Positions 39,301 through 60,610 of a DNA stretch of 64,000 nucleotides are shown in pieces; position 1 is the stretch's first letter, and each line of letters starts with the position of its first letter. Origin of the DNA: Ereboglobus sp. (GTDB lineage: Bacteria > Verrucomicrobiota > Verrucomicrobiia > Opitutales > Opitutaceae). The position numbers were made by a program, and so were the translations under genes. Where the stretch lies: NCBI GenBank assembly GCA_029974595.1, contig JARKRC010000027.1, positions 1 to 64,000 of the forward strand. The letters are read 5' to 3'. A model generated the notes under the pieces. That model ran no database searches, was not told where the DNA came from, and saw only the letters and a list, made by a program, of their open reading frames with translations.

Positions 39301-40334
39301 GTTTGGTTAAGGATGAGGTGGCCGCCGGATTGGTAGATGGCACCGCCGCCGCCGGTGGTGGCGGTGTTGCCGCGGGAGGCGTCGGAGGCGTTGCCGAAGG
39401 TGGCGCTGGTGATGATGGTGGTGTCGGTGGAAAAGGTTTGGAGCGCGCCGCCGCTGATGGAGGTGTTTTGCTCGAAGACGGCCCCGGTGATGGTGGCGCG
39501 ACCTGCGGCGGTGATGTGAATGGCGCCGCCGCCTTGGTTGGCGGTGGCGGTGGTGGTTTTGTTGCCGAAGAAGGCGACATCAGTCATGGCAACGGTGCCG
39601 GCGGCATAGACGACGAGCGCGCCGCCGCGATTGGCGGCGGTGTTTCCGCGAGAGGGGTCGCCTTGGACGCCGAAGGTGGCCGAGGTGAGCGTCTGGAGCG
39701 CCGTGCTGTTGTAGAGGATGGCTCCCCCGAGCGTTGTGGCCGTGTTGCCGTGGAAGACCCCGCCGATGACGGTGGAACTGGCGCCGGTTTCGACGGCGAA
39801 GGCGCCGCCGCTGGTAGCGGCATTGTAATAAAACTCGCCGTTGGCGAGGTCGATGACGGCCCCGGCGCCGCTGGCATAGAGCGCGCCGCCGTAGTTGTTG
39901 TTGAAGTTGCCGAGGGCGGGATTGTCGTGGTCGCCAAAGCGGACGTTTTGCAGGTCGAGGGTGCCGGAGGCGCGGATGCTCATGGCCGCGCCGCGTCCGC
40001 CGGTCGTGGTGTTGGAGATGAAGACGGTGGTGCCGCCGCCGGTGGTGCGGAAGACGGCGCCCGCGGTGGCAAGGTGGACGGCGCTGTTGGTGCCGGTGGC
40101 GAGGTGGTCGAAGGTATAAAGGACGCCGTCGGCGATATCGAGAACGGTGGTGTCGGTGACCGTGAGGCGCGCGGGGGCGTTGGTGGTCGTGGTGATGGTG
40201 GTGGTGCTTTGCGCGGGAGCGCCGACGGCGCAAAGCAAGGTTGCGCCGAGCGCGACGAGTTTAAGTTTTGAGGCTAAATGGGAAAGTGCGCGAGGGCCGG
40301 TGCTGGCACGGCTAAAGAGGGAGGTGGTTTTCAT
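33399..40334 (-). CDS. Giant autotransporter with polymorphic and PATR-type repeats
   Basis: 2311 residues starting MKTTSLFSRAS, with a signal peptide ending near AVGAPAQS. The first ~500 residues are glycine- and asparagine-rich repeats of the polymorphic outer-membrane type (GGALYASGAGAVIDLANGEF, GGAIHITAAGRATITGAVF). The middle (about 550-2000) is a beta-helix of autotransporter-associated strand repeats (KTGDGTLILADGDSS, KLGTGTLTLQNTANNF, KTGHGTLILNNAANTF). The last ~280 residues form an outer-membrane beta-barrel ending in LGLRW. It is probably an adhesin or glycan-binding surface protein. It lies 56 bp downstream of a TonB-dependent receptor on the same strand. Threonine and alanine are abundant, as in secreted passengers. 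Confidence 0.92.
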   Translation of the reverse strand: MKTTSLFSRASTGPRALSHLASKLKLVALGATLLCAVGAPAQSTTTITTTTNAPARLTVTDTTVLDIADGVLYTFDHLATGTNSAVHLATAGAVFRTTGGGTTVFISNTTTGGRGAAMSIRASGTLDLQNVRFGDHDNPALGNFNNNYGGALYASGAGAVIDLANGEFYYNAATSGGAFAVETGASSTVIGGVFHGNTATTLGGAILYNSTALQTLTSATFGVQGDPSRGNTAANRGGALVVYAAGTVAMTDVAFFGNKTTTATANQGGGAIHITAAGRATITGAVFEQNTSISGGALQTFSTDTTIITSATFGNASDASRGNTATTGGGGAIYQSGGHLILNQTAFYANSSTGGGGGAIYLASAGTLSITGAVFVSNSVGPTNARHGSAISLATDAIATITSATFSGNYAAGHATILINNNTVLKTYTLSDVLFSENYVGSEGGAVFIGNNTDITFNNARFTGNSANAGGALMTRTAPRVTLNDALFTSNTARTGLGGAINIRDGGLLDYNATVSATHSGNLAGTSGASGGFLYLASGGTANFNIASSATVQIGGVSADHDTLSTGTFTNTVINKTGDGTLILADGDSSSQRGAINVAAGRFLLANSATLGGNITVASGAVFGGQGAIDSAADGDLNRAVSIQTGGTLQIGSDGAFGDTQHLINTGSITLANNTSIIGSGQIINDTGSIIIGSAAGDAINIVANRIGADDQWIHITGNIAGNATIVKTGEGILGISGNNTYTGGIQLEAGALRLGSDSAIGTGTLNVTGTGASIVVLGQNIANNIVLNQTAAFSTTADSTLSGTLFGPGGFIYENSSSTINITGTFFGVPSVTINSGNLSGDLASVPLVSISNTARYTGNLARAANQTLSIGLGGAEIAGDLSLANNASLTFDLANAGADALLHATGAFTITGTTALDIAHLGNGTYKIISASSIGATAANIAYTVDGGSLTGRHSLAFVFSATDISVNASYRNLRVTYAGTGNTIWDDSAANWTDASTSNTGETRFNNGDSVRFANATGTLTIAAAGITAGDIEVNGSGALTFAGSTLATSATAASVDGVTGIVALDTSSAVPTTAVATGKLTKLGTGTLTLQNTANNFADGIDLNAGVLAFSTAQQLGSNMGPSASPLLLAGGTLRPQATATLANTITISATSALDTGAAVNLTHTGTLLGATTLDKLGAGTLTIAGDAAAFTGVVNVGQGAFLLANSATLSASVTATSSNATVGGAGLFLGNLTLTNATLQVGAGINAPAPGTLSFAASSTLTLTGATRLAFAITTAGADTLFLANPAALVTDNNANIISLAFGAISTGTYTLANAPALANIHNLEINGTPFDSTLRIRAELAASGTSLLFIYDTDASRYMQWTGASGTSIWNIGLANFTGYNGDTGNKFKFQNGDTIRIATTAAQTITIEAPVTVTDLVVDNTGTLTLAGAALTADASSQYGTLITNPTGALTKTGHGTLILNNAANTFLGGITLNAGVTAFSTAQQLGTGAGPSAAGLLLNGGTLRPAASVTLTNNITLSAPSALDIPQAVSLTLTGSTSGAGTLNKLGAGALILSGTAPLGHASTTIYDGLVVLRDIPAAAAPGVTHTFQLDGGILDLSAAAGFTGTGANAGTNDWQNLTLTGSAGAIIGSNDKITLRTGDTFLAIGGDTSASQGLYVVIDAAGGVATLTTANTYAGITLLQSGTLRVAANDRLGNTAYNRELRFTGTGATLEITADAFSTSRPITLVENGAISIDTGTATINSPITGAGKTLTKLGPGTLVITSTTSSATLAYALDAGVLQATPAVLGARSVTVAADATLALEVVTTATYTPAFAGGGVFEKRGPATLALASAFGHTGPIRVASGALKTTANNQFNSASPLAIAPGAALDLRGTSQTAHSLTLDGALLFSATVNSNLGVILASDRLDLAGTLAGSGTINLTLAETTDDGSSPIHGPAPSSIALITSAENTSGFTYNITNGLADAIYGWQIVPDGQNLNLAQKRLVPVIPAVAGINAALQIAAQSSLNTLQNRLDNLRLLNDGHRRPGSDWFVSASYRDDTVTAPLYNDAKGITRTLAAGVNLTPAKARSARTQSSLSYGIYTDFTETQLRLTDAETNTKTYSIATSFAWQPNSAFHAEAILRGAQTRHAVQVKDVDELRIGGTGLGGAFILGYTIQTKSGWFVDLRERLSAHITSIEKRVTDSAHRVYDIDDITSIRAGADVQFSRHALLFRKWPFRPSLRLAYDYEIKGSGDVTVLRYHDAGRTRLRDRHTVTDDLSGGALAAGLGAAIRFNDHLEASANLSAAFTGPLQDYTMNLALGLRW
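35650..37060 (-). repeat. Internal duplication in the autotransporter, period 1119 bp (373 residues)
   Basis: The segments around 35,650-35,940 and 36,770-37,060 encode closely similar text: LNAGVLAFSTAQQLG and LNAGVTAFSTAQQLG, then GGTLRPQATATLANTITIS and GGTLRPAASVTLTNNITLS, then LDKLGAGTLTIAG and LNKLGAGALILSG. Matching bases (GAGTTG at 36975 and GAGTTG at 35856) are 1119 bp apart, exactly 373 codons. Confidence 0.8.
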
Positions 40335-40390
40335 GGGCGGAGACGCGTTTGGAACGTTTGAGTTTTTTGCGGATGCGGGGCGATGGCGGA

Positions 40391-43300
40391 TTACCATTCG
40401 CCTTTCACGGAGAGGCTGATGACGGAGCCGGTGCGCATGTAGCGGCTCATAACGAGGGGGCCGGGAGCGATGTCCTTGAGTTCAACGTAGGGGTCGTCGA
40501 AGAGGTTGCGGATGCTGAAGGAGACGGTGTAGTGGCGGTTGATGCGGTAGTCGCCGCTGAGGTCGGTGCGGGAGCGGTGGCGGTTGAGGCTCAGGCCGGT
40601 GGTGGAGAAAGGGTAGGTGTCGTTCCAGTTCCAGTTGATGTTGAGGCTGACGCCGCGGTGGGCGTAGGAGAGGCCGGCGTTGACGGTGTGGGGGACGAGG
40701 CCGGAGACGTGGCGCTCGTCGGCGGCGGGCTGGAGGATTTCGGCGTAGGTGCGGGTCCAACTGGCGCGGAGGGTGATGGGGCGGAGGGCGGGGGCGATGA
40801 AGCCGAGGTTGCGGCGCCAGGCGAGTTCCATGCTGCGGATGGTGACGCCGGCGGCGCTGTTGAAGCGGGAGCTGACCATGTAGCCGGGGTATTCGTTTGC
40901 GAGGGCGGGGTCGGCGTAGTCGGCGACGGAGATCAGGTTGCTCTGGATTTTGTTTTGGACGTTGTTCTGGTATAGGGCGATGGAGATGGCGCCGGCGCCC
41001 TTGGGATACCAGGCGAGGCGGGCGGCGAGGTTGCGGGCTTTCTCGGGCTGGAGGCGCTTGTTGGCGATGTTGATGAGGCTGTTGGTCGTGTCCACGAGGG
41101 TGACGCCGATGAGGTCGCCGTAGTTGGGGCGGCGGATGGTGGTGCTGAAGCCGAGCTGGAGGTTCAGGTTGGAGAGGATGTTGTATTTGAGGGAGGCGCT
41201 GGGGAAGAGGCGGGCGTAGTCGCTGTCCTTGCGTATCCAGGGGCGGGAGAGGAATTGGTAGTCGATGCCGGGGATGGTGATGGCGCGTCCGCTGGCGTTG
41301 ACGATGGCGCCGGTAGGTGTACCGCCCTGCCGGTAGGGGAGCTGCTCGGCGGCGGGGAGGCTGGTGACGTAGTCGATGACCTGCTGGGAGGTGTAGGAGT
41401 CGGCCTCGCGGATTTGGTTGGTGGTGTTTTCGTAGCGGAGGCCTGCGCGGGCGGAGATGCGCTTGTTCAGAAAAGTGGTGGTGGCCATGAGGTAGCCGGC
41501 GTCGATGCGTTCGAGGAAGTTGCGGTGGTAGAGGACGCGGGCCTGGTAGTATTGGTCGGCGGTGGTGACTTTGGAGAAGAGTTTGTCGGAGGGGTCGAGG
41601 TCGGCGTCGGCGCGGTAGGCGTCGGCGATGGCGGAGGTGTCGGGCGTCCAGACGGTGCCGCCGCCGGTGGTGGCGAGGGAGGCGCCGGAGCGGCCGAAGT
41701 CGAAGTCGTAGGGGCTTTTGAAGCCGGCGTGAGAGGCGTTGGCGGTGTAGGCCCATTGGCTAAGGTAAACGTTTTCGTCGAAGGTGCGTTTTTCCTCGCG
41801 GCTTTTGAGGCCGGTTTTCCAGTGGATGGGCCAGAGCCAGCGGGTCATGAGGGAGACGTTGGCCTGGGCGTTGAGTACTTTGGCGGTGGTTTTGCGGCCG
41901 TCCTCCATGTAGATGACGCGGTCGCCGGTGTAGGAGGCGCCGTCGGCGAGGTCGGGGCCGCCGAGTTGGGTGATGGTGTAGTCGGCGGCGGCGGTGCCGG
42001 GGGAGCGGGTGACGCGATAGGCGACGCCGGTGGCCCTGCCGCGAACGATGTAGGCGGCGCCTTTTTTGCCGTAGGAGTCGCCAGCGGATTTGCTGTCGGC
42101 GTAGCCGACGCGGGCGTCGATGGCGAGGTTGCGGGTTTTGTATTCGAGGCGGACCTCGGGGGAGACGTAGCGGCCGGACTGGACGACGTTGCGGGATTCG
42201 GAGGAGACGTAGCTGTTGGAGCCGCCGGCGACCTCGAAGGCCTGCATGGGGTTGTCGCCAGCGACGATGGCGAGGGAGTTGGCGGGGCGGTCGGCGTAGT
42301 TGGCACCGACGGAGGTGGCGAGGACGAGGTTGCGTTGGCGGTGCCAGAGGTCGGAGACGCTGTAGTTGAGGGAGGCGCCGAGGGAGAGGGCGGGGGTGAC
42401 GCGCCAGTCGGCGCGGATGGTGGAGGCGAAGCGGTGGTTCACGCGGGGGGTCTGGCGAAAGGTGATGGCGGCGGGGACCTGGGGACGCGGGTCGTTGGTG
42501 TTGGGGGAGAAGTTGATGTCGATGACGGTGTCGTTGGTGACGGAGTAGATGTTGCTTTCGCTGAGGTCCACGAGGAGGCCGAACTTGCCGCGCCTGGCGA
42601 CGGAGAAGCTGGCGAGGAATCCGGGGCGGATTTTGAGCGAGCGGCGGTCGTCGTCAGGGCCGAGGGTTTTGTCGAAGTTGAGGGCGGAGGAGTGAGCGTT
42701 GAGGACGATGCGGGTGGCGAAGTGGACGCCGCGGCGGTCGAAGGCGGACTTGCTGCGGAGGTTGATGGTGCCAGCGGGGGCGTTGGCGTCCACGTCGGCG
42801 CTGATGGTGCGGGAGATTTCGATGGACTCCATGCTGTTGAGCGAAATGAGCTCGAAGGTGGCGGAGCGGGTGGAGTTGGCCATGTTGGCGACGGTGGTGG
42901 AGACGCCGTCCACGGTGACGTTGGTGTATTCGGAGGGGAGGCCGCCGATGCTGGCGCTGGTGGCCTCGCCAGCGGTGGAGTTGACGATGATGCCGGGCAT
43001 GTTGCGGAGGAACTCGCCGATGTTGCCCTCCGGGTCGCTGCCGAAAAGGTCGGACGAGACAGAGGTGCCGATGTCCAGCGAGGCGCGCTCGCGCATGATG
43101 ACCTTGGCCTGGCCTTCGCGTTCGGAGGTGACGGTGAACTTTTCCAACTGGACAACATCATCGGTCGTGGCGGCGGTGGTCGGGCCGGTGGGAAGGGGCA
43201 GCTCGAAGTTCAGCGTGGCGGTGGCGCCGGCGGTGATGGTGACGGTGCGCGCGACATCGGGCAGGCCGGCGTAGCTGAGCACGATCGTGGCCTCGCCGAC

Positions 43301-43564
43301 GGGGAGGCCGAACATTTCGTAGAATCCGCCGGCTGCGGTGAAGACGGTCTCGCCGGTGGCCGCGTTGCGGATTTGCGCGTCGCGCACATACTCGTCCGCT
43401 GCGGGATTGAAAACGCGTCCGGTGATCGAGCCGGGCTTGGCGGCGGTTTGGGCGTGCAGCGCCGAGAGCGTGGCGCAGACGAGAATCAGGGCGAGCGCGG
43501 GGAGGATTGCCAGCGGGAGTCGGGGGAGCCGACGCGGGAACGAGGGGCGGGCGTGGGAATTCAT
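40391..43564 (-). CDS. TonB-dependent outer-membrane receptor
   Basis: 1057 residues with a signal peptide (about 1-38, ending ALHAQ). A carboxypeptidase-regulatory-like domain (GSITGRVFNPAADEYV to about 118) precedes a TonB-box-like VVQLEKFTVTSE, then the plug (DIGTSVSSDLFGSDPEGNIGEFLRNMPGI) and a long 22-strand-type barrel ending SLSVKGEW. Such receptors import large substrates with energy from TonB. No SusD-like lipoprotein is adjacent, unlike in Bacteroidota. Its promoter gap with the divergent LacI gene holds TTTTCA-G-TGAAAA. Given the enzymes to the right, an oligosaccharide substrate is likely (inference). Confidence 0.94.
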   Translation of the reverse strand: MNSHARPSFPRRLPRLPLAILPALALILVCATLSALHAQTAAKPGSITGRVFNPAADEYVRDAQIRNAATGETVFTAAGGFYEMFGLPVGEATIVLSYAGLPDVARTVTITAGATATLNFELPLPTGPTTAATTDDVVQLEKFTVTSEREGQAKVIMRERASLDIGTSVSSDLFGSDPEGNIGEFLRNMPGIIVNSTAGEATSASIGGLPSEYTNVTVDGVSTTVANMANSTRSATFELISLNSMESIEISRTISADVDANAPAGTINLRSKSAFDRRGVHFATRIVLNAHSSALNFDKTLGPDDDRRSLKIRPGFLASFSVARRGKFGLLVDLSESNIYSVTNDTVIDINFSPNTNDPRPQVPAAITFRQTPRVNHRFASTIRADWRVTPALSLGASLNYSVSDLWHRQRNLVLATSVGANYADRPANSLAIVAGDNPMQAFEVAGGSNSYVSSESRNVVQSGRYVSPEVRLEYKTRNLAIDARVGYADSKSAGDSYGKKGAAYIVRGRATGVAYRVTRSPGTAAADYTITQLGGPDLADGASYTGDRVIYMEDGRKTTAKVLNAQANVSLMTRWLWPIHWKTGLKSREEKRTFDENVYLSQWAYTANASHAGFKSPYDFDFGRSGASLATTGGGTVWTPDTSAIADAYRADADLDPSDKLFSKVTTADQYYQARVLYHRNFLERIDAGYLMATTTFLNKRISARAGLRYENTTNQIREADSYTSQQVIDYVTSLPAAEQLPYRQGGTPTGAIVNASGRAITIPGIDYQFLSRPWIRKDSDYARLFPSASLKYNILSNLNLQLGFSTTIRRPNYGDLIGVTLVDTTNSLINIANKRLQPEKARNLAARLAWYPKGAGAISIALYQNNVQNKIQSNLISVADYADPALANEYPGYMVSSRFNSAAGVTIRSMELAWRRNLGFIAPALRPITLRASWTRTYAEILQPAADERHVSGLVPHTVNAGLSYAHRGVSLNINWNWNDTYPFSTTGLSLNRHRSRTDLSGDYRINRHYTVSFSIRNLFDDPYVELKDIAPGPLVMSRYMRTGSVISLSVKGEW

Positions 43565-49183: not shown

Positions 49184-52100
49184 ATGAAAATGTCCTTCAA
49201 ATTCTCCATGCGCGCCGGATTTTCATTCCCGCCTCCCGCTCTTCTCGCCTTCCTCGCGCTCGTCGTCGTCGGCGTGTTTGACGCCGCGCAAGCCGCCGCC
49301 GCTGCCTCCTCCTCCCCGCTCATCGTCAAAGCCACCAAAAATCCAAGCGGCACCTTCGGCCTCGCCGTTCTCAACGTCTCCGCCGACGCCGCCCTCTTCC
49401 AGCCCGGCCCGATGCGCGTGTCGCTCTGGAACGGCGCCCCCGCGAAGGGCCTCGGCATCACCTCACGCGGCTACGCGCAACTGCGCGAAATTTCCCCAGG
49501 CGAATGGCTCGGCACCGGCGTCATCCGCGGAAGCGATGTCGAGCGCATCGGCGCCGCCGCTCCGCACAACGCCGTCTCCTTCGCCTTCACCGACCGTTGG
49601 TCCGTCCGGGGCAACGTCCTCCGCCTCCGCCGCGAGGTGCGCGTGAGCGGCGACGCCCCCGGCGGCTTCATGAGCGTCATCGCCTTCCGCATCCCCGGCG
49701 CGCGCCCGTGGCCCGAAATGGAGTGGTTCGTCCCCGGCACGATTTACGGCAACTTCGACCACCTACGCGACAATTCCTTCGGCGCCGCCAATTATTACAA
49801 AGAAGGCGACTACACCGTCTGGATTCGCGAGGACCGCCTGCCCGCGCCCATGCTGGCAACCCGCCTCCCCAACGGTGCCAGCGTCGCCGTCCTCGACTCC
49901 GCCCCCGACAGCGCCACCAACGCCGCCGACGGCCTCACTCTCACCATGAAGCCGCTCGCCAGCGAGGACTTCCGCTTTGGCTCCATCATCGCCGAGGAGC
50001 GCCCCCACGCCTCCGGCATCGGCTACGCCTTCCCCGGCTCCGAGGGCACGCTCACCTACGGCCCGAAAGGCGACCTCCACAAGGTCTCCGCGCCCCTGCT
50101 CTGGCGCTACCGCTTCAGCCCGCTGCACGACGGCTTCATCCACCGCTACGAGGTCTCCTTCCGTCTCGACCGCGCCGCGGACACCAACGCCCTCGTCGCC
50201 GACCACTGGCGCTGGGCCTGGGAAACGCTCAAACCGCAAGTCAACCCGCAGCCCGTCGAAACCCTTCGCGGCTGCATGGCCGACGTGCTTCTGGAAAACG
50301 TCGTCGAGCATGACGGCGTCACCGGCATCCGCCAAGTCATCGCCTCCGAGGCCAACCCCAAGCCGGCGTCCGCCGTCACAAAATCCGTCCTCGGTTTCAC
50401 CGGCTACGCCCTCGGCTCCGCCGAAATGATGCTCGCCGAGGCCGACCGCGACCCCGCCTCCCCGCGATCCCAAGCGATGCAGCAAGCTGCCGAAAAAATC
50501 ATCACCACCTTCCTCCGCCTGCCCGTCGCCCCGCCCGTCGCCGAGGGCTTCGTGCTGGGCGGCGAAAACAACGGCGCCCTCGCCGCCGACCAAAACCCCA
50601 TGGCCAGGCCTCTCACCGAAAAATCCCCCATCTACCTCCGCAGTTTCTGTGACGACATGAAATCCCTCATGCGCGCCTACGAACGCCAGAAAAAAGCCGG
50701 GCGCGACCACCCCGAATGGCTCGCATGGACCCGCAAATTCGGCGACTGGCTTCTCACTCAACAACAACCTGCCGGCGGTTTCCCGCGCTCCTGGCGCGCC
50801 CTCACCGGCGAACTCTTCGACAGCTCCCCATCCGGCACCTTTAACGCCGTCCCTTTCTTCGCGCAGTTGCATAAAATTACCCGGCACCAGCCCTACCTCG
50901 ACGCCGCCCTTCGCGCCGGCGAATTTGCCTGGAACAGCGGCCACGCCCGCGCCCGCTTCACCGGGGGCACCATTGACAACCCCGACGTGATCGACAAGGA
51001 GGCCGCCACGATTTCCCTCGAAGGCTACCTCGCGCTCCACGCCGCCACCCGCGACAACAAATGGCTCGACCGCGCGCGCGTCGCCGCCGACATCGCCGAA
51101 ACGTGGATGCGCATCTGGAACATCCCCATGCCTTCCGACGCCACGCAGGAGCAAATCCACTGGCCCATCGGGCAGTCCACCGTTGGCATGCAACTCGTCG
51201 CCACCGGTCACACCGGCGACGACACCTACATGGCCTGGGACGTCGAAAGCTACGCCCGCCTCTCCCGCGAAACCGGCAACCCGCACTACATGGACGTCGC
51301 CCGCATCCTCCTGCACAACACCAAGGCGATGGTGGGCCGTCCCGGCGACAATCGCGGCACGCGCGGCCCCGGCTGGCAGCAGGAGCACTGCTGGCTCGAT
51401 CTCCCGCGCGGGAAGGGCCGCCATCGCGCCTGGCTCCCCTGGCTCCCTGTCAGCCACCTGCGCGGCATCAACGACCTGATTGATTACGATGCCGCCTTAT
51501 ACAAACAACTCTCCACCGCCACCGCCGCCGAAACCGCCGCCGCTGCCGAGCGTATTGCCGCCGCGGCGCGCCAGCCAGTTCGCAAGCCGACGGTTTCCCC
51601 TTCCCCTGCCGCCGAAGGCGCCGCCACCTCGCGCCGCCCAAGCGTTTCCGAGTGGAAATACGACCGCGGCCCCGACCCGAAAACAACCGGCTCCCTGCGC
51701 GTTGACGGCGAAAAAATCATCCTCACCGGTGATTTTTCCAAAGGCGGCAAACGCTTCGTCGCCGCCTCCTGCCCAATCAAGTTTCCCGGCGCGACGCTCG
51801 CGACGTTCAAGGTCAGGACCGACCAGAAGAAACTCTATGTGCGCCTCGTTGACGCGACCGGCCAGCGGCACCAGCAGGAGCACACCATCCCGCGCGGTGA
51901 GGTCGGCGAGGTCACCGTGCCCTTCCTCGCCAGCCTCGGCAAGGCGTCGTGGGGCGGCGCGGAGGACGACCGCCTGCACCTGCCCCTGCGCTCAATCGAA
52001 ATTCTTGTTGCCGCCGCCGTCTCCGGTGCCACCGGAACCGCCGAAGTCTCCGACATGGTTTTCATCGGAAAAAACGCAGCGTCGGGCGCGTTCACCAACC

Positions 52101-54226
52101 CTATCGCCGTCGGCGCGGACCCGTTCATCACGCGGCACGGTGGCGCGTATTACTGGTGCCAGTCGGAAAACGATCTCGGCGTCGCCATCTGCAAGTCCGA
52201 CTCGCCCGCCTCACTCGGCGAGCGCCGCGTCGTCTGGCGCGCCCCTGGGACCGGCCCGCACTCGCGGCAAATATGGGCGCCCGAACTCCATTTCCTCGAC
52301 GGACGCTGGTATATCTACGCCGCCGCCTCCGACGGCGACAACGCCAGCCATCGCATGATCGTCCTCGAATCCGAGACCGACGATCCGCTCGGCGCCTACA
52401 CGTTCAAGGCCGAGCTTTACACCGGCGACGACATCGCGAAAAAAACCAACAATCGCTGGGCCATAGACGGCACCGTCCTCACGCATCGCAACAATCGCTA
52501 TTTCATCTGGTCGGGCTGGGAGGCCAGTTCTGGCGACGGCAGCCAATGGCTCTACGCCGCGCCCATGAGCAACCCGTGGACGATTTCCGGCAACCGCGTC
52601 CGTCTCTGCCGCAACGCCGCCCATCTCTGGGAGCGCGTCGGTGAAACCGGCGACGGCCTTGGCCTCAACGAAGGCCCGCAAGTCCTTCAGCACGGCGGCC
52701 GAACCTTCCTCATCTATTCCGCCAGCGGCTCCTGGCAACCCAGCTATAAACTCGGCCTCCTCGAACTCATCGGCGACGATCCCCTCAAACCCGGCGCGTG
52801 GCGGAAGCACCCGCAACCCGTTTTTTCCCCCACTGACAAAACCTTCGGTGTCGGCCACGGCTCGTTCACAACATCGCCTGACGGCACGCAATTCTGGCAT
52901 GTCTATCACGCCAAACGCGAACGCGCCAACGGGTGGGCGCGCGCCATCTTCGCGCAACCGTTCACGTGGACCGCGGACGGCTTCCCCGATTTCGGCGCGC
53001 CTGTCGCGCCCGGACAGCCGGTTGCCATGCCCTCCCAAAACACCGCCGCGGCGCGCGAGCCTGTCCGCAAGCCGACGGTGTCCCCCGCCTCCGCCGCCCC
53101 GCTTGCGCTCGTCTGGGACGCCGTCCCCTTCCAATCCTGCTTCGTCAACCACGGCGGCTACGGTCGCGTCAAGCGCCTCTCCAACGGCGAACTCGCCTTC
53201 ATCTACTCCACCGGCCCGGTCAAGGACACCGCCGTTTATATCCGCAAAAAGAAATCCGCCGCCGACCCCGACTGGGGCAAACCCGTCCGCGTCGCCACGC
53301 CCCCGAAACCCGCCTCGCCCGCCGAAAACCCCGACTACCGCTACGTCAACTCCGAGATGACCGAGCTTGCCGACGGACGCCTCTTCTACACGTGGAACGC
53401 CCGCCCCGTCATCCGCGACGGCCACCTCCCCTACAAAATCATGGGCGCGTTTTCCTCCGACGGCGGCGCGACGTGGAGCGAGGGCCGCGACCTCTACCTC
53501 GCCGGCGACACCTTTCGCACCGGCTGCTGGGAGCCGTTCCCCATCGAAATCCCCGCCGGCGGCCCGTTCTCCAGCGGCGAGTTGCAAGTCTGGTTTTCCG
53601 ACGAGTCCACCACACCCGACGGCGACCAAAACATCACCGTCCTCCGCTCCCGCGACAACGGCGTCACCTGGCTCAAACCCGCCGTCGCCTGCTACCGCAA
53701 AGGCTGGCGCGACGGAATGCCCATCCCCGTCCTCCTCCAAAATAACAAGGGCCTCGTCTTCTCCATCGAGGACAACCGCGGCCTGCACCACCGCTTCAAC
53801 CCCGCCATCATCCGCCCGCTTTTCGACGGCGAGTGGCGCGGCGTCGTTGATGCCGACAGCCCGCGCCGCTGGAGCGCCCTCGCCGCCCCGCCGACACCTC
53901 CCGACGCCTACCTCGGCGCCCCCTACCTCATCCAACTTGACACCGGCGAAACCGTCCTCTCCTGCCAGTCCACGGAAAACCGCAAACGCGACTCCAAAAA
54001 ACACCACCTCTACGCCAGCCTCCGCGTCTATGTCGGCGATTCCGACGCCCGCAACTTCGCCAACCCCACGACGCCCTTTCCCGACCTCCCGCCCGACGCG
54101 AACGCGCTGTGGAACTCCATTTGCCAGATTGACCACGACACCCTCGTCGCCGTCGCCGACATCAAGGGCCTCCCGAAAAACAACGGTCTCTACATCGCCA
54201 CTGCCAAAATCCGCCGCGCGCCGTGA
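49184..54226 (+). CDS. 1680-residue multimodular secreted glycan-degrading protein
   Basis: A signal peptide (about 1-38) is followed by four parts. Residues 40-795 are a beta-sandwich plus (alpha/alpha)-barrel-like module (ARPWPEMEWFVPGTIYGN, SFCDDMKSLMRAYERQ, FGDWLLTQQQPAGGFPRSW, HWPIGQSTVGMQLVATGHTGDD) that I cannot assign to a numbered family. Linker 1 is QPVRKPTVSP (797-806). About 815-965 is a carbohydrate-binding-like sandwich. About 968-1260 is GH43 with Asp979 (base), Asp1095 (in WAIDG) and Glu1163 (in NEGP). Linker 2 is EPVRKPTVSP (1292-1301). About 1305-1680 is a sialidase-like propeller with Asp boxes (SSDGGATW, SRDNGVTW). The first module has a stand-alone paralogue at 58265. The stacked specificities suggest attack on one branched glycan. 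Confidence 0.9.
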   Translation: MKMSFKFSMRAGFSFPPPALLAFLALVVVGVFDAAQAAAAASSSPLIVKATKNPSGTFGLAVLNVSADAALFQPGPMRVSLWNGAPAKGLGITSRGYAQLREISPGEWLGTGVIRGSDVERIGAAAPHNAVSFAFTDRWSVRGNVLRLRREVRVSGDAPGGFMSVIAFRIPGARPWPEMEWFVPGTIYGNFDHLRDNSFGAANYYKEGDYTVWIREDRLPAPMLATRLPNGASVAVLDSAPDSATNAADGLTLTMKPLASEDFRFGSIIAEERPHASGIGYAFPGSEGTLTYGPKGDLHKVSAPLLWRYRFSPLHDGFIHRYEVSFRLDRAADTNALVADHWRWAWETLKPQVNPQPVETLRGCMADVLLENVVEHDGVTGIRQVIASEANPKPASAVTKSVLGFTGYALGSAEMMLAEADRDPASPRSQAMQQAAEKIITTFLRLPVAPPVAEGFVLGGENNGALAADQNPMARPLTEKSPIYLRSFCDDMKSLMRAYERQKKAGRDHPEWLAWTRKFGDWLLTQQQPAGGFPRSWRALTGELFDSSPSGTFNAVPFFAQLHKITRHQPYLDAALRAGEFAWNSGHARARFTGGTIDNPDVIDKEAATISLEGYLALHAATRDNKWLDRARVAADIAETWMRIWNIPMPSDATQEQIHWPIGQSTVGMQLVATGHTGDDTYMAWDVESYARLSRETGNPHYMDVARILLHNTKAMVGRPGDNRGTRGPGWQQEHCWLDLPRGKGRHRAWLPWLPVSHLRGINDLIDYDAALYKQLSTATAAETAAAAERIAAAARQPVRKPTVSPSPAAEGAATSRRPSVSEWKYDRGPDPKTTGSLRVDGEKIILTGDFSKGGKRFVAASCPIKFPGATLATFKVRTDQKKLYVRLVDATGQRHQQEHTIPRGEVGEVTVPFLASLGKASWGGAEDDRLHLPLRSIEILVAAAVSGATGTAEVSDMVFIGKNAASGAFTNPIAVGADPFITRHGGAYYWCQSENDLGVAICKSDSPASLGERRVVWRAPGTGPHSRQIWAPELHFLDGRWYIYAAASDGDNASHRMIVLESETDDPLGAYTFKAELYTGDDIAKKTNNRWAIDGTVLTHRNNRYFIWSGWEASSGDGSQWLYAAPMSNPWTISGNRVRLCRNAAHLWERVGETGDGLGLNEGPQVLQHGGRTFLIYSASGSWQPSYKLGLLELIGDDPLKPGAWRKHPQPVFSPTDKTFGVGHGSFTTSPDGTQFWHVYHAKRERANGWARAIFAQPFTWTADGFPDFGAPVAPGQPVAMPSQNTAAAREPVRKPTVSPASAAPLALVWDAVPFQSCFVNHGGYGRVKRLSNGELAFIYSTGPVKDTAVYIRKKKSAADPDWGKPVRVATPPKPASPAENPDYRYVNSEMTELADGRLFYTWNARPVIRDGHLPYKIMGAFSSDGGATWSEGRDLYLAGDTFRTGCWEPFPIEIPAGGPFSSGELQVWFSDESTTPDGDQNITVLRSRDNGVTWLKPAVACYRKGWRDGMPIPVLLQNNKGLVFSIEDNRGLHHRFNPAIIRPLFDGEWRGVVDADSPRRWSALAAPPTPPDAYLGAPYLIQLDTGETVLSCQSTENRKRDSKKHHLYASLRVYVGDSDARNFANPTTPFPDLPPDANALWNSICQIDHDTLVAVADIKGLPKNNGLYIATAKIRRAP

Positions 54227-54360
54227 GCAAAACGTTTTTCCTTAATTCTACTTTGTTAAAATGAAGGCATGCCCGCGATTGTCAGCGCCATTTGCCACTC
54301 GTTGAATGAGGAATATCCCAGTTAACAAGTTTGTTCCTTTTGGATTGGACGCATACCATC

Positions 54361-54420
54361 ACAGAGAAATCACAAAGCAATCCGCTCTTTGATTTTCCTG
54401 CGTTCTTTGCGGTTAAATAA
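54361..54420. repeat. Intergenic phrase with TGCGTTCTTTGCGGTTAAAT wording
   Basis: In the 218-bp gap before the MFS gene, the plus strand reads CACAAAG..CTTTG then TGCGTTCTTTGCGGTTAAAT. AAATCACAAAG and CTTTGATTT can form a small imperfect hairpin. The sentence-like CTTTGCGGTTAAA motif is one I associate with recurrent intergenic repeats in diverse bacteria, from memory only. The rest of the gap shows nothing clear. Confidence 0.4.
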
Positions 54421-54444
54421 AAAACATCTCCTTCGTTCCCTTCT

Positions 54445-55737
54445 GTGAAAAATAACTCCCAAAAACAATCCGTGAAATCCGCACTTAAAAAAATTCCCTA
54501 CGCATGGGAGCTTATCGTCTGGCTCTGGCTTGCCTACTTCATGAATCAGGCCGACCGCCAGCTTTACAGCGTCGTCCAAAAACAGGTGCAGGAGGCGCTC
54601 GGACTGACTGACATTCAGGCTGGTTTGGTGAACACGATTCTGATCGCCGCGATGGCGGTGATGATGCCCATCGCGGGTTTCCTCGGCGACCGTTTCTCGC
54701 GCCGCCGCATCGTCCTCTGGAGCCTGCTCGGCTGGAGTGTGGCGACAATGCTGACAGGCTTCACCACGGGCCTGGTCTCGCTCATCGTCATCCGCAGTCT
54801 GGCGACCGCCGTGGGCGAGGCGTTTTTTGTTCCCGCCGCCACCGCGCTCATCGGCCAGTATCACGTCAAGACACGCGGACAGGCCCTCGCGATTTATCAG
54901 ACCGCGCAGTATTTTGGCGCGGTGTCCTGCGGATGGGCGGGCGGCTGGGTCGCGGGGAAATTTGGATGGGAGCACTCCTTCTGGATTTTCGGCGGCGCCG
55001 GCATCGTGCTCGTTGCATTGATGTGGCCCCGTTTGAAGGAGGCGCCCAAGGCGGCCGTCGCGGCTGTTCGCGAACCGATTAGCGCCGTTCTCGGGGCATT
55101 GGTCCGCACGCCGACCGCGCTGGTGCTGACGATCGCGCTGGGCTGCTCGACCTTTGTCAACATGGGCATCCTCTCGTGGATGCCGACCTATTTGCAACTG
55201 GCCCCGTTCAATCTCGCGCCCGCAAGCGCCGGGTTCTTCAGCATGTTTTATTATCAGCTCTTCTCTTTCGCTGGCGTGCTTCTCGGCGGACGCCTTTCGG
55301 ACAGGATTGTCGGAAATCGCCCCTCCTTCCGCATCGAGCTGTCCGGCCTCGCGCTTCTCCTCTGCGTGCCCACGATCTACCTCATGGGCGCGACGCACAG
55401 CCTTTGGCTTGTTTATGCGACGCTCGGGGCATTCGGATTCTTCCGCGGCCTCTACGACTCGAATATCTACGCCTCGCTCTTCGACGTCGTCGCGCCGCGC
55501 CATCACTCCTCGGCCACCGGGTTGATGGCCGGATTCTCCTTCGGCGTCGGTTCGCTTGCGCCGCTTTTCCTGGGCATGATCAAGCAATCCTACGCGCTCC
55601 ACACCGGCATCTCGCTGCTCGCGACCGTTTATATTGTCGGGAGTCTTGCGCTGCTCGTCACCGCGCGCGGCTTTTTCCCGAAGGATTTTGCCCGCAACCA
55701 AGGCCAGATCCTCCCGCCCGGAGGCCGGAAACAATAA
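54445..55737 (+). CDS. MFS transporter
   Basis: 430 residues with 12 hydrophobic segments. FMNQADRQLYSVVQKQVQEALGL in helix 1, the loop 2-3 motif GFLGDRFSRRRIVLW and RSLATAVGEAFFVPAATALI are major-facilitator signatures. The start is a GTG (54445, or 54472 in the same frame); no ATG is available before helix 1. It lies in the saccharide locus between the multimodular enzyme and the GH43 protein and probably imports the released sugar or sugar acid across the inner membrane. A small secreted-protein gene follows 17 bp later. Confidence 0.9.
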   Translation: MKNNSQKQSVKSALKKIPYAWELIVWLWLAYFMNQADRQLYSVVQKQVQEALGLTDIQAGLVNTILIAAMAVMMPIAGFLGDRFSRRRIVLWSLLGWSVATMLTGFTTGLVSLIVIRSLATAVGEAFFVPAATALIGQYHVKTRGQALAIYQTAQYFGAVSCGWAGGWVAGKFGWEHSFWIFGGAGIVLVALMWPRLKEAPKAAVAAVREPISAVLGALVRTPTALVLTIALGCSTFVNMGILSWMPTYLQLAPFNLAPASAGFFSMFYYQLFSFAGVLLGGRLSDRIVGNRPSFRIELSGLALLLCVPTIYLMGATHSLWLVYATLGAFGFFRGLYDSNIYASLFDVVAPRHHSSATGLMAGFSFGVGSLAPLFLGMIKQSYALHTGISLLATVYIVGSLALLVTARGFFPKDFARNQGQILPPGGRKQ

Positions 55738-55754
55738 CACAAACCAAAACCACC

Positions 55755-56201
55755 ATGAGAAAACTCATCCTCATCACAATCGTCGCCCTCTTCGCCGCCG
55801 TTCCCGCCACGGCCCAAAGCAACGCGCCCTACACCGAGGGCCCCGTCTGGGACATCATCCTCGTGCGCCTTAAGCACGGCATGCACGACGCCTACTTCAA
55901 AAGCATCTCCAAAACCTTCAAGGCGGTCATGGATGAGGCGAAAAAAGAGGGTGTCATCATGGACTATAAAATCCTCTACGGACAGGCATCGTCGCAGGAC
56001 GACTTCAATGTGATGTCGATGGTGCAGCTCAAAAACTACGCCGCCCTCGACACCTATCGTGAAAAGATCGATCCCATCGCGCGCAGGATCGAAGGCGACG
56101 CCAAGACGCAAACCGCCACCTTCTCCTCCCGTGTCGATATCCGCGAGATACTCGGCTACAAACTCATGCGCGAAATCACGCTGAAGAACAGCGACGAATG
56201 A
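55755..56201 (+). CDS. Small secreted protein of unknown function
   Basis: 148 residues with a clear signal peptide (about 1-21, cleaved after ATAQS). The mature part mixes helices and strands (GPVWDIILVRLKHGMHDAYF, KKEGVIMDYKILYGQASSQDDFNVMSMVQLKNYAALD), a layout compatible with a dimeric alpha/beta-barrel (ferredoxin-like) fold such as NIPSNAP or antibiotic-monooxygenase domains. This is a fold guess only. It is 17 bp after the MFS gene and 22 bp before the GH43 gene, so it belongs to the operon. Confidence 0.82.
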   Translation: MRKLILITIVALFAAVPATAQSNAPYTEGPVWDIILVRLKHGMHDAYFKSISKTFKAVMDEAKKEGVIMDYKILYGQASSQDDFNVMSMVQLKNYAALDTYREKIDPIARRIEGDAKTQTATFSSRVDIREILGYKLMREITLKNSDE

Positions 56202-56223
56202 CAACTCCTCGCGCCCTCCGGTC

Positions 56224-58248
56224 ATGAAAACCGTCCTCCGTCTCGTCCTGATTCCCACGCTGGTTTTCGTGGCCCGGCAAACCGCTTTCGCGTCGGCGCA
56301 GCCGTCGAACATCGCCTTCGTCGGCGGAACGGGCGGGACCGCCGGCGTCGATGCGTTTTCCGCCGCCTTTGCGCAGCTTCCCGACGGCGGCACCATCGTC
56401 TTGCGCGGACCGGTGCGGCTTGGCGAAAACTACGCCGCGCCCGCTCACGCCGCGCGCGTCATGATCACCAGCGTCCACGACGGGAAAGACTACCGTGCCG
56501 AGGGCGCGATGCTCGGCTTCGGCGAGACCTTTGTGCTCGGCGGACCGACGACGTTTGCCAGCATCACGCTTGCGGCCGATTCGAAAACGCCGGGCATTTT
56601 TTGCGAAGGGCATCCTGTCGTTTTCGACAACGGCGTCGAGTGCCGCGCAGCGAAGGATGGCAGGTTTCCGGCCATCACCGGCGCGGCGCGCGACAGTCGG
56701 CGTTCCGGCGCTGAAATCACGGTCGACAGCGGCGAGTGGCACACCCTGTCGGGCGGCGCGTCTGGAGGCAGTAGCGGCAATCTGAGCGTCACCATCAACG
56801 GCGGGCGTTTCAACGGCGTGGTTCTCGCCGCGGGCACGGGCCTCCACAAGGGCGACGCGACCCTGACGCTCAACGGCGGCATGTTTTTCGGAGGCGTCGC
56901 CATCCTCGGCAATTCCCCCAAGGCCGCATTTCGCGGCAGCGCGACCCTGACCATCAACAACGGTGTTTTCTTCAACGCCATCGCCGCCGCGCGCAACGCC
57001 TCGGCGGCATTTTCCGGCGATTACGCGCTCGCGATAAACGGCGGCGACTTCACCAGCGTCACCGATGTCAGCGGCACTCGCGACTTGCGTGGCGATGCGA
57101 CCTCGACGCTCACGGCGTTGCCCGGCCTGCTCGACAAGCGCAACGCCGGCACTCTCACCTTCACCAATCCCCTCATCCCGGGGGCCGATCCGTGGGTGTT
57201 TTTCCACGACGGTTTCTACTACGCCACCGCCACCGGCGGCACCCAGCTCGCCATTCGCAAGGCCGCCAATCTCCCCGACCTGCCGCGCGCCGAGACGGTG
57301 GTCATTTACAAGCCCGCCGCCGGAAAACCGTGGTCGCGCAACCTCTGGTCGCCGAAAATCTATCACTTCTCCGAGTCCGAGGTCGGCGCGGAAAACGCCG
57401 GCTGGTATCTCTATCTCTCCGCCAACGACGGCAGCGGGCGTCCCTCGCAGGGACAGCGGATGTTTGTCCTCCGCTCGCTCTCCGGCACTCCGCTTGGCCC
57501 CTACGGCTCGGCGACCGGCAAACACCAGCCGCATGTCGCGACGCGGGTGTCCGCCGCCGCGAAAGGCAGCACCTTCAACAAAAATTGGTGCGGCGGCGCG
57601 AAAATCCTCAAGCACGGCGGCAAACTCTACGCCATTTGGGTGAGCGAGGTCGGCGACGAGTTTTCCAAAAACACCGGCGACCGCTACCAAACCATCAACA
57701 TCGACCGCCTCATCAACCCTTGGACCATCGAGGGAAAAGGCGTGGTCATTAACCGTCCGACGCTCGCGTGGGAGAAACACGGCGCAGGCCCGGGCAAACG
57801 GGGCATGTATCCCGAGGTCGTCGAGGGTGGCACGCCGGTTCACGCCGCCGATGGCACGCTCTATCTGCTCTACGCCGGCAGCGGCTATTGGACGCCCCAT
57901 TACGCGATCGGCGTGATGAAGCTCACCGGCACCGATCCGATGAATCCGGCGCACTGGCAAAAAGCCACCCGGCCCATCTTCAAGGCATCCGATGAGGTCG
58001 TCGGCACGGGCAACGCCTGCTATGTGCCTTCCCCGTCCGGCAAATCAAACTGGGCCATCTATCACGCCTATGTCGGCACGAAGACGCGCGGCGTTCCCCG
58101 GCAGTTGTTCGCCGAGCCTTACATCGCCGATGACAAGGGAGTGAGCATTGGCGCGGGGCGTCCGCTGCCGCCCGGCACGCCCTTGAAAATCGAGGCCAAT
58201 CCGATACCGCTGCGTCAAAAAATCAGCGGCTTCACGACCGCGCCCTGA
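56224..58248 (+). CDS. Secreted protein with N-terminal beta-helix-like part and a GH43-like domain
   Basis: 674 residues with a signal peptide (about 1-26). Residues 30-300 are short glycine-rich repeats (LSVTINGGRFNGVVLAAG, ATLTLNGGMFFGGVAILG, ATLTINNGVFFNAIAAA) that suggest a right-handed beta-helix. From about 314 a GH43-type propeller starts: NPLIPGADPWVFF gives the base Asp322, and MYPEVVEG gives the likely acid Glu531. Where GH43 enzymes carry the pKa-modulating Asp (AIDG in the neighbour at 49184) this protein has WCGG (455-458), so it may be altered or inactive. It is the penultimate gene of the operon. Confidence 0.88.
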   Translation: MKTVLRLVLIPTLVFVARQTAFASAQPSNIAFVGGTGGTAGVDAFSAAFAQLPDGGTIVLRGPVRLGENYAAPAHAARVMITSVHDGKDYRAEGAMLGFGETFVLGGPTTFASITLAADSKTPGIFCEGHPVVFDNGVECRAAKDGRFPAITGAARDSRRSGAEITVDSGEWHTLSGGASGGSSGNLSVTINGGRFNGVVLAAGTGLHKGDATLTLNGGMFFGGVAILGNSPKAAFRGSATLTINNGVFFNAIAAARNASAAFSGDYALAINGGDFTSVTDVSGTRDLRGDATSTLTALPGLLDKRNAGTLTFTNPLIPGADPWVFFHDGFYYATATGGTQLAIRKAANLPDLPRAETVVIYKPAAGKPWSRNLWSPKIYHFSESEVGAENAGWYLYLSANDGSGRPSQGQRMFVLRSLSGTPLGPYGSATGKHQPHVATRVSAAAKGSTFNKNWCGGAKILKHGGKLYAIWVSEVGDEFSKNTGDRYQTINIDRLINPWTIEGKGVVINRPTLAWEKHGAGPGKRGMYPEVVEGGTPVHAADGTLYLLYAGSGYWTPHYAIGVMKLTGTDPMNPAHWQKATRPIFKASDEVVGTGNACYVPSPSGKSNWAIYHAYVGTKTRGVPRQLFAEPYIADDKGVSIGAGRPLPPGTPLKIEANPIPLRQKISGFTTAP

Positions 58249-58264
58249 CCCATCCGGCTTTTCC

Positions 58265-60610
58265 ATGAAAACAACCACCACGATAAAACCACGATCCGCC
58301 ATGAAACTCCCAGCCGCCATTTTCGCCATTCTTGCTTTCGCGCTCGCGTTGTCCGCGCAGCCCGCCGCCGCAGACGGCGCTTCGTCGGTCAGGCTCGCCG
58401 CCATCAAGAATTCGAACGGCACTTCCGGCATCTCCGCCCTCAATGTCTCCGCCGATGCCGCCCTCTTTCAACCCGAGCCGCTGCGCGTGTCGTTTTGGAA
58501 TGGCGCGTCCAAAAAAGGCCTCTCGCCCTTGCGTGGCGGCTACGCGCAATTGCGCGAAACCGCGCCCGGCGAATGGCTCGGCACCGGCAGGGTGCAGGGC
58601 AGCAAGGCCTCCACCGGCGCCAAGCCGCCGCACAACGCCGTCGAGTTCGACTTCACCGACCGCTGGACCGTCACAGGCGACACCGTCCGCCTCCGCCGCG
58701 AGGTGCGCGTTCACGGCAGCGCCCCCGGCGGCTTTAACAGCGTGATCATGATGCGCGTCGCCGGCGCGCGTCCGTGGCCTGAAATGGAATGGTTCGTCCC
58801 CGGGACGATTTACGGCAACTCCGACCATCTGCGCGACAATTCCTTCGGCGCGGCCAATTATTACAAGCCCGGCAACTACACCCTCTGGATCCGCGAGGAC
58901 CGGTTGCCCGCGCCGCTTCTTGCCACGCGCCTGCCCAACGGCGCCAGCGTCGCCGTGCTCAATTCCGCGCCCGACGGCACGACCAACTCCGCCGACGGAC
59001 TCAGCTTCACGCTCAAGCCGATTGCCAGCGCGGATTTCCGTTTCGGCTCCATCATCGCCGAGGAGCGTCCGAACGCCTCCGGCATCGGCTACGCCTTTCC
59101 CGGCTCCGAGGGCACGCTCACCTATGGCCCCAAGGGACAGGCCCACGCAACCTCCGCCGTCCAGCTCTGGCGCTACCGTTTCAGCCCGCTCAAAGACGGC
59201 TTCGTCCACAACTACGAGGTCACATTCCGTCTCACGACCACGCGCGACACCAACGATCTCATCGCCTCCAACTGGCGCTGGGCCTGGCAGACGCTCAAGC
59301 CGCAAGTCAGCCCGCAGCCCCTTGAAGTCCTTCGTCGCTGCTTAGTGGACGTATTGATGGAAAACTACGTCGAAAAAGACGATCGCGCCGGGCTGCGCTT
59401 TGTCGTCGCGTCCGAGGCCAATCCCAAAAAGCCCTCGACCGACGAGACAAAACTCATCCTCGGATTCCTCGGCTACAACATCGGCGCGGCGGAAATGATG
59501 CTCGTCGAGGCCGACCGCGACCCCGCCTCGCCGCGCGCGAAAACCCTGCGCGAATCCGCCCAAAAAATCATCGCCACCTTCCTGCGCCTTCCCGTCGATC
59601 CGCCCGTCGCCGAGGGCTATATCCTCTCGTCCGGCGACTATGCCGTTTCCGAGCTTGCCGCCACAAAAACGGTCACCGAGGAAAACTCGATTTATCTCCG
59701 CAGCTTTTGCGACGACATGAAATCGCTCATGCGCGTCTATGAACGCGAGCAGCGCGCCGGCAGGCAGCACCCCGAATGGCTGGCTTGGGTTCGAAAGTTC
59801 GGCGACTGGCTTCTCCTGCAGGAGCAACCCGGCGGCGGCTTCCCGCGCTCCTGGCGCGCCCTCACCGGCAAGCTCTTCGACGGCTCGCCGACCGGCACGT
59901 TCAACGCCATTCCTTACTACGCGCAGCTCTACCGGCTGACCAAGCACCAGCCTTACCTGGACGCCGCCCTTCGCGCCGGCGAGTTCGCATGGAAGTCCGG
60001 ACATGACCGCGGACGCTTCACCGGCGGCACCAGCGACAATCCCGACGTGATCGACAAGGAGGCCGCCACCATCGCGCTCGAAGGCTATCTCGCCCTGCAC
60101 GCCATTACTCAGGACAAAAAGTGGCTCGAACGCGCCCGCACCGCCGCCACCGTCGCCGAAACGTGGATGCGCATCTGGAACATCCCCATGCCCTCCGACG
60201 CCACGCAGGACAAAATCCACTGGCCCATCGGCCAATCCACCGTCGGGATGCAGCTCGTCGCCACCGGACACACCGGCGATGACGCCTACATGGCTTGGGA
60301 CGTTGAGAGCTACGCGCGCCTTTCCCGTGAAACCAACGACCCGCACTATATGGATGTCGCCCGCATTCTCCTCCACAACACCAAGGCGATGGTTGGCCGT
60401 CCCAGCGATTTGCGCGGCACGCGCGGTCCCGGCTGGCAGCAGGAACACTGCTGGCTCGATCTCCCGCGCGGAAAAGGCCGCCACCGCGCCTGGCTCCCTT
60501 GGGTGACGGTCAGCCACCTGCGCGGCATCAACGACCTTGTTGATTACGACGCCGCCCTCTACAACCAACTCGCCGGCGAAAGCGCGCCGGAAGTGAAAAA
60601 GCAAAAGTAA
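58265..60610 (+). CDS. Secreted paralogue of the first module of the large enzyme
   Basis: 781 residues (769 if the Met at 58301, MKLPAAIFAILAFALALSAQ, is the start; that one begins the signal peptide directly). It matches residues 40-790 of the protein at 49184 throughout, for example MEWFVPGTIYGN, NASGIGYAFPGSEGTLTYGP, FCDDMKSLMRVYE and HWPIGQSTVGMQLVATGHTG, with close DNA similarity, so the two arose by duplication. It stops where linker 1 begins in the larger protein. Family and substrate are unassigned; an (alpha/alpha)-barrel glycosidase, lyase or epimerase is possible. Confidence 0.88.
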   Translation: MKTTTTIKPRSAMKLPAAIFAILAFALALSAQPAAADGASSVRLAAIKNSNGTSGISALNVSADAALFQPEPLRVSFWNGASKKGLSPLRGGYAQLRETAPGEWLGTGRVQGSKASTGAKPPHNAVEFDFTDRWTVTGDTVRLRREVRVHGSAPGGFNSVIMMRVAGARPWPEMEWFVPGTIYGNSDHLRDNSFGAANYYKPGNYTLWIREDRLPAPLLATRLPNGASVAVLNSAPDGTTNSADGLSFTLKPIASADFRFGSIIAEERPNASGIGYAFPGSEGTLTYGPKGQAHATSAVQLWRYRFSPLKDGFVHNYEVTFRLTTTRDTNDLIASNWRWAWQTLKPQVSPQPLEVLRRCLVDVLMENYVEKDDRAGLRFVVASEANPKKPSTDETKLILGFLGYNIGAAEMMLVEADRDPASPRAKTLRESAQKIIATFLRLPVDPPVAEGYILSSGDYAVSELAATKTVTEENSIYLRSFCDDMKSLMRVYEREQRAGRQHPEWLAWVRKFGDWLLLQEQPGGGFPRSWRALTGKLFDGSPTGTFNAIPYYAQLYRLTKHQPYLDAALRAGEFAWKSGHDRGRFTGGTSDNPDVIDKEAATIALEGYLALHAITQDKKWLERARTAATVAETWMRIWNIPMPSDATQDKIHWPIGQSTVGMQLVATGHTGDDAYMAWDVESYARLSRETNDPHYMDVARILLHNTKAMVGRPSDLRGTRGPGWQQEHCWLDLPRGKGRHRAWLPWVTVSHLRGINDLVDYDAALYNQLAGESAPEVKKQK

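Follow-up and report, generated by a model that had tools for sequence, protein, structure and literature searches.

The gene considered here encodes P0001, a 1680-residue protein, and lies in a 64,000-nucleotide stretch of DNA (the window) from Ereboglobus sp., contig JARKRC010000027.1. Two things about it appear, from sequence comparison, to be new: it seems to keep a recombination seam whose two parts survive as separate genes with identities of about 90%, and its first module seems to represent a barrel family for which Pfam and NCBIfam hold no model. As a whole, the observations are best explained, with moderate confidence on our part, by a probably exported multifunctional enzyme for the arabinose-bearing side chains of plant polysaccharides, whose activities are predicted and whose parts were joined or swapped at a copied linker. 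The genome to which the window belongs (G000; 4.07 Mb in 77 contigs, 96% complete) was compared with samples of 250 genomes of the family Opitutaceae and 387 of the phylum.

The open reading frame of P0001 was recovered at the coordinates and on the strand given in the sequence-only reading (Table 1). That reading had divided the protein into three modules, and these are present, but a fourth had been overlooked: a module resembling a carbohydrate-binding module (CBM). The order is therefore module 1 (M1), the CBM-like module, a module of glycoside hydrolase family 43 (GH43) and a sialidase-like propeller. A hydrophobic, signal-like N-terminus, judged by eye, suggests that P0001 is probably exported. 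Because a second Opitutaceae genome, from another genus (G415, stretch L077), has the same four-module order in one frame, of 1640 residues, the frame of P0001 is not an assembly error.

The peptide PVRKPTVSP occurs in P0001 at exactly two positions, 798 (linker 1) and 1293 (linker 2). In 1000 residue shuffles of the protein the longest exact repeated peptide had 7 residues, a length reached in 4 of the 1000. At the DNA level the repeat extends over 56 nt with 86% identity, and 40 of the 48 nt of its core agree. When the whole window genome was searched with the back-translated linker, allowing up to two mismatches, only the two P0001 sites were found; the control, the degenerate pattern read backwards, gave one match in the same genome. 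Linker 1 has counterparts in relatives, PVRQPTVSP in L077 and SVRKPALSP in L037 (a stretch described below), and linker 2 matches linker 1 of L077 over 54 nt (83%, E 1.5e-10) and linker 1 of L037 over 51 nt (80%, E 6.4e-8). Ala/Pro-rich linkers are common in secreted enzymes, and the two linkers might on that ground be convergent low-complexity sequence that tells nothing of history; nine identical residues against a shuffle maximum of seven, the long DNA repeat, the presence of just two sites in the genome and the matches to linker 1 of both relatives make this very improbable. By these comparisons linker 1 is common to the relatives and only linker 2 is peculiar to the window genome, that is, there is one linker and one copy of it. 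The earlier proposal that the identical linkers reflect repeated recombination at the linker is supported in so far as the linker marks a seam, and is not supported as regards the repetition. A stretch upstream of an M1 gene elsewhere in the genome (L042, G000:C17) reads WRQPANVRKPYV when translated by eye, and is reminiscent of the linker.

Relatives of the parts of the gene occur as two genes in one related metagenome-assembled genome (MAG), G392. Its stretch L037 (MAG 'Opitutaceae bacterium isolate Md513_bin46'; 2740 nt of G392 contig C225 were found in it letter for letter) carries the end of M1, the linker, the CBM-like module and GH43, followed by a stop and a gene for a transporter of the major facilitator superfamily (MFS). 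The window gene is 89.0% identical to L037 over 2225 nt, and the match ends at gene nt 3864. In L079, contig C71 of G392, the propeller is a gene by itself and begins with a signal-like start; the window gene is 92.6% identical to it over 1133 nt, starting at gene nt 3905. Linker 2 (gene nt 3877-3903) falls inside the 40 nt that separate the two matches. In L077 the second joint reads NTAASAAAPLALVWD, without linker 2, and the propeller is only 70.6% identical to that of the window at the amino acid level. Trees separate the M1 modules of the window and G415 from the rest (support 100), the three fused GH43 modules from the rest (support 91), and unite the window propeller with the stand-alone propeller of G392 (support 100). 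In the M1 tree the placement of L037 depends on a fragment of 230 residues; in the GH43 tree the grouping of G415 with L037 has a support of just 63 and the P3-type outgroup attaches by a long branch. The identity breakpoints, the L077 joint and the trees together show that the propeller has a history different from the rest of the protein, with the change at linker 2, and on this comparison linker 2 was copied from linker 1 and stands at a recombination seam.

Among the 250 Opitutaceae genomes the four-module frame was found in G000 and G415 only. The genus of the window is shared with G080, G418 and G440; M1 and propeller lie at separate places in G080 and G418, and G440 (65% complete) gave GH43 matches only. 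A further fusion with its modules in another order, first a different GH43, then the propeller and then an M1 with a large internal deletion, is read in one frame in G438 (L078:1611-4292), where the assembly is fragmented.

How the propeller came to its present place may be read in two ways. A mature propeller of the stand-alone type may have been joined to a gene of the layout M1-linker-CBM-GH43, with a linker copy placed at the joint between GH43 and propeller, or it may have been swapped into an older fusion. In the latter case the fusion would have formed once, with the joint NTAASAAAPLALVWD as in G415; the window lineage would later have taken in a propeller of the G392 type, the linker copy arriving with it, and L037 would then have lost its propeller. 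Since the first part has its closest relative in a gene that already joins four modules, replacement of the propeller appears about as likely as a first fusion, and to the particular course just described we give slightly less than an even chance. M1, CBM and GH43 of the window are nearer to the G415 fusion than to L037; in addition, APLALVWD stands at the joint in both the window and G415, while the stand-alone gene of G392 has APLSLLWD, and the end of L037, judged by eye, may be what is left of such a joint. The common joint, however, amounts to 24 nt, which is too short to decide, and identity to the G392 propeller is uniform right from its beginning (0.92 over the initial 30 codons), with no G415-like remnant inside the propeller.

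Several observations weigh against a simple origin of the gene from two genes. The first part has a closer relative than L037: amino acid identity of the window to G415 is 91% for CBM and 92% for GH43 (87% for M1), compared with 85% and 86% to L037 (88% for its M1 fragment), and the L037 M1 fragment falls outside the window and G415 pair in the M1 tree. The propeller is also not the only place where identity to G415 falls. Per 40 codons, identity is 0.86-0.97 over residues 361-1280 and 0.65-0.91 over the propeller, and because it also drops, to 0.68-0.87, over M1 residues 81-360, the mosaic structure of the P0001 gene is not confined to one place. Finally, the G392 MAG is 67% complete, in 240 contigs which may be mixed or transferred. 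A PriA-like gene shares 92% identity with that of the window among genomes of the genus, 84% for G415 and 70% for G392; as the propeller of G392 is nevertheless 92% identical, a transfer between lineages or a mixed MAG is involved. In G415 (L077:8688-15984) tracts of 0.93-0.97 nucleotide identity between the fused and the stand-alone M1 lie among blocks of 0.66-0.75, a pattern such as gene conversion would give.

Three M1-type copies are found in the window's genome. The copy that the sequence-only reading had placed downstream as a separate gene (P0002) is there, in a frame of 781 residues 74% identical to the fused M1, and a third, on contig C17, is 64% identical. The statement that M1 has no nameable family was borne out as well: in both window proteins no Pfam or NCBIfam model scored above its cut-off, and sequence and profile searches of the Protein Data Bank (PDB) gave only short matches, to (alpha/alpha) barrels. 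GH76 (PF03663) reached 18.4 (P0001) and 23.0 bits against a cut-off of 25.9, and GH127 (PF07944) 16.0 and 18.1 bits against 24.9; the L037 fragment exceeded the latter with 31.4 bits, over 45 residues only. An AlphaFold model of the P0002 barrel (predicted local distance difference test, pLDDT, 55.9; predicted template modelling score, pTM, 0.66) is good for the fold class only, and matches GH76, AGE epimerases, GH88 and the lyase 5no8 of polysaccharide lyase family 27 (PL27) with Z of about 19-24. Strands are seen in the N-terminal half, in a full-length model that is itself unusable (pLDDT 42.4, built from four sequences). M1 is accordingly described here as a predicted beta-domain followed by a predicted (alpha/alpha) barrel.

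Relatives of M1 are present in 31 of the 250 Opitutaceae genomes at E <=0.001, and in 46 of the 387 genomes of the phylum, where only two candidates per genome were scored. Outside the phylum they were found on plasmids, with 41% identity in Deinococcus and about 20% in Bacteroides, Catenovulum and Segatella; one scan of viral contigs (query A1) gave no relative. In 36 aligned sequences (P0002 numbering) D597 is conserved in all, E599, E727, Y183 and W746 in 34 each, D591 in 33 and R213 in 30. In the 34-row alignment A6, which omits the poorly aligned L006 and L026, D597, E599 and E727 are invariant. The D-x-E motif is common to the distant relatives in Bacteroidota, Deinococcota and Verrucomicrobiota. 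That the conserved residues span both domains suggests a shared active site. Judged against Pfam and NCBIfam, M1 is a credible candidate for a new carbohydrate-active family with a predicted activity. A wider proposal, made tentatively and with slightly less than even confidence, is that M1 founds such a family across Verrucomicrobiota, Bacteroidota, Deinococcota and Alteromonadales, whose active site would lie between the N-terminal beta-domain and the (alpha/alpha) barrel (D-x-E, a second Glu, an Arg and a Tyr), and that in Opitutaceae its modules are exchanged at copied linkers at such a pace that one bacterial family contains the same sequences both split and fused.

What M1 does is predicted to be hydrolysis, and two other activities have to be weighed. 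M1 might be a divergent beta-L-arabinofuranosidase of the GH127/GH146 kind, to which the weak GH127 matches in several members, with the one in L037 above the cut-off, and the arabinose-related neighbour genes would point. Enzymes of GH127 have conserved Cys at a Zn-bound active site and a C-terminal beta-domain; the Cys-rich site is missing from M1, in which the best Cys column holds 11 of 36, and the beta-domain is N-terminal, so that this identity is quite improbable. A polysaccharide lyase or uronate dehydratase, with uronic acids of arabinogalactan- or xylan-type side chains as its substrate, is an unlikely but more serious candidate. The fold matches include 5no8 (BACCELL_00875; Z 20.2), and PL27 has an N-terminal beta-sandwich followed by an (alpha/alpha)6 barrel (PMC8377490), the domain order that is predicted for M1. 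Dehydratase activity is documented for a GH154 member and BT_3677 (PMC12269599); the GH154 member acts before GH88 (PMC12269599), and uronate dehydratases (former GH154, P29_PDnc) act before unsaturated uronyl hydrolases (PMC12269599, PMC8511951). The Bacteroides finegoldii relative of M1 lies directly behind a GH88 gene, and the Deinococcus cluster has a 2-keto-3-deoxy-6-phosphogluconate (KDPG)-type aldolase. On the other side, 5no8 is absent from the PDB matches at E <=10 of both P0002 (4 matches) and the B. finegoldii relative (3 matches), no GH88 model is among the matches of the 14 window proteins scanned, and a hydrolase would accommodate the three conserved acids no less well. For GH154 and P29_PDnc, taken up from the literature, no sequence link to M1 was found; no entry named GH154 by its depositors is among the PDB matches listed for M1, which in one search were the best 60 of 69.

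The fused GH43 module matches PF04616 with 169.4 bits (cut-off 32.2). GH43 enzymes use a catalytic base Asp, a pKa-modulating Asp and an acid Glu, which correspond to D979, D1095 and E1163, and these residues are kept in 3/3 fused and 5/5 stand-alone GH43 sequences aligned; by these positions the module is canonical. The propeller scanned alone matches BNR_2 (PF13088) with 34.2 bits (cut-off 31.4), whereas in the scan of the whole protein the score is 28.5 bits and falls below the cut-off. The (F/Y)RIP motif of GH33 sialidases is absent from all six propeller sequences, and matches to solved sialidases are of partial coverage only. On these scores the module is termed sialidase-like and is not called a sialidase. 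For the CBM-like module, the window copy gave no Pfam family and, by profile, no PDB match below E 0.2. In relatives, similar domains are arranged in tandem, sit within an M1 or form part of other fusions. In G418, one is inserted within the N-terminal domain of an M1 (L073:18272-19903, continued in L074:1-1200), a nearby gene is a tandem pair of them (L073:17018-18082), and a third gene (L073:5442-10211) fuses a P3-type GH43 to such a domain and to a C-terminal part of agarase-like appearance, judged by eye.

Taken together, these features suggest how P0001 could work. The substrate would be arabinose-bearing side chains of plant polysaccharides; the bacterium belongs to the genus of Ereboglobus sp. 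PH5-10, with an insect-gut habitat. GH43 would remove terminal alpha-L-arabinofuranose, the propeller would remove or recognise another terminal sugar, and the CBM-like module would tether the enzyme to the polymer. M1 may be a hydrolase with its active site between beta-domain and barrel, whose acids would be among D597, E599 and E727, together with R213 and Y183 (P0002 numbering). The fusion would keep these activities on one branched side chain; the sequence-only reading had suggested that the ordered modules may attack one glycan in sequence.

GH43 genes directly adjoin the M1 relatives of B. finegoldii and Segatella hominis, and the M1 cluster of G099 contains two arabinofuranosidase-domain proteins, a SASA-type esterase and GH10. 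Of 42 genomes with distant relatives, 26 had the locus given; in at least 5 of these a GH43 lies within 10 kb of the best M1 match, against 0.51 expected at random places (P about 0.0001). Certain points count against the functional part of this reading. Sugar genes cluster generally, which could produce such an excess, and little weight attaches to GH43 neighbours; in the stretches fetched, no GH43 is annotated for the relatives of Deinococcus and Catenovulum. Of the solved GH43 relatives two carry the label beta-xylosidase, leaving the GH43 activity predicted only, and those of M1 and the propeller are likewise predictions. The full-length M1 model is unusable and the barrel model weak, as given above, and M1 could be a lyase or dehydratase, which R213, Y183 and N192 would suit too.

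The genes that follow P0001 in the same direction are included in Table 1. P0002, said in the sequence-only reading to end the operon, is the last gene of the sugar cluster, as a PriA-like gene (named by eye) comes after it on the same strand, so that it is the end of the cluster rather than of the run of genes. The small protein between the transporter and P0003 gave no Pfam match to E 10 and no NCBIfam match to E 1. P0003, the second GH43 protein, lacks the pKa-modulating Asp and keeps the other two catalytic positions. The P3-type GH43s of L036, L042, L044, L073, L076 and L077 likewise lack this Asp (7 distinct sequences with P0003), and have CGG, TVG or VAG in place of the IDG or VDG of other GH43s. 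P0001 is preceded by oxidoreductases and, further up, by a LacI-type regulator, a TonB receptor and a PATR-repeat protein; the last two, the PATR-repeat protein having 2332 residues, occupy window positions 33399-43564 on the opposite strand. Their homologues lie beside a second cluster of the same genome (L042, G000:C17, and L005), with a P3-type GH43, M1, TonB receptor and PATR-like protein. PF07980 (SusD) had no match in the one genome searched for it, that of the window.

Table 1. Features of the P0001 gene and of the genes that follow it (window positions).
Feature	Position	Strand	Basis
Four-module fusion protein P0001, 1680 aa	49184..54226	+	open reading frame
Module 1 (M1), residues 46-790	49319..51553	+	predicted beta-rich N-terminal domain and (alpha/alpha) barrel, no named family
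Linker 1 PVRKPTVSP, residues 798-806	51575..51601	+	repeat analysis; related linkers in L077, L037
CBM-like module, residues about 820-960	51641..52063	+	recurs in other architectures
GH43 module, residues 966-1292	52079..53059	+	PF04616; D979, D1095, E1163 at canonical positions
Linker 2 PVRKPTVSP, residues 1293-1301	53060..53086	+	seam between GH43 and propeller
Sialidase-like propeller, residues 1307-1680	53102..54223	+	BNR_2; Asp-boxes at 1424 and 1489
MFS transporter	54445..55737	+	PF07690, 189 bits
Small protein, 152 aa scanned	55743..56201	+	similar ones beside M1 in L042, L044, L037 (by eye)
Second GH43 protein P0003	56224..58248	+	PF04616, 66.5 bits; N-terminal part without Pfam match
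Stand-alone M1 copy P0002, 781 aa	58265..60610	+	open reading frame, similarity to fused M1

Fusions of several enzymes are common, but their seams are usually too old to read. For P0001 close relatives of both parts are known as separate genes (89 and 93% nucleotide identity) and a four-module relative without linker 2 exists, so that fusion or module swapping at a copied linker is open to testing with more genomes. As a possible new glycan-active family M1 offers a well-delimited object of study, for which residues to be mutated can be named; it also has relatives in Bacteroides finegoldii and in a Segatella from a human sample.

Multi-module enzymes as such are a kind already known; no description of such a fusion appears in the titles and abstract openings returned by literature searches. 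In the fold of its barrel M1 resembles GH76, GH88, AGE epimerases and other (alpha/alpha) barrels, with VIA Z of about 19-22. It differs from GH76, a family with a catalytic Asp pair, in scoring below the Pfam cut-off and in that its D-x-E is not aligned with that pair in the alignments inspected. With the PL27 L-rhamnose-alpha-1,4-D-glucuronate lyases it shares the barrel match to 5no8, and with the uronate dehydratases, to which no sequence link was found, the parallel of the B. finegoldii relative beside GH88. The propeller is like the GH33/BNR_2 sialidase-like propellers in its BNR_2 score above cut-off (module alone) and its Asp-boxes, and unlike GH33 in that propellers of the window type have no RIP motif and match solved sialidases in part. 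Solved relatives of the GH43 module comprise 9nxg and 9nxj, labelled GH43, 3akf, an alpha-L-arabinofuranosidase, 5m8e, an alpha-N-arabinofuranosidase, and 5m8b and 3k1u, labelled beta-xylosidase. Like known GH43 enzymes, the P0001 module has the full PF04616 match and the three catalytic positions; it differs from them in being embedded in a four-module protein.
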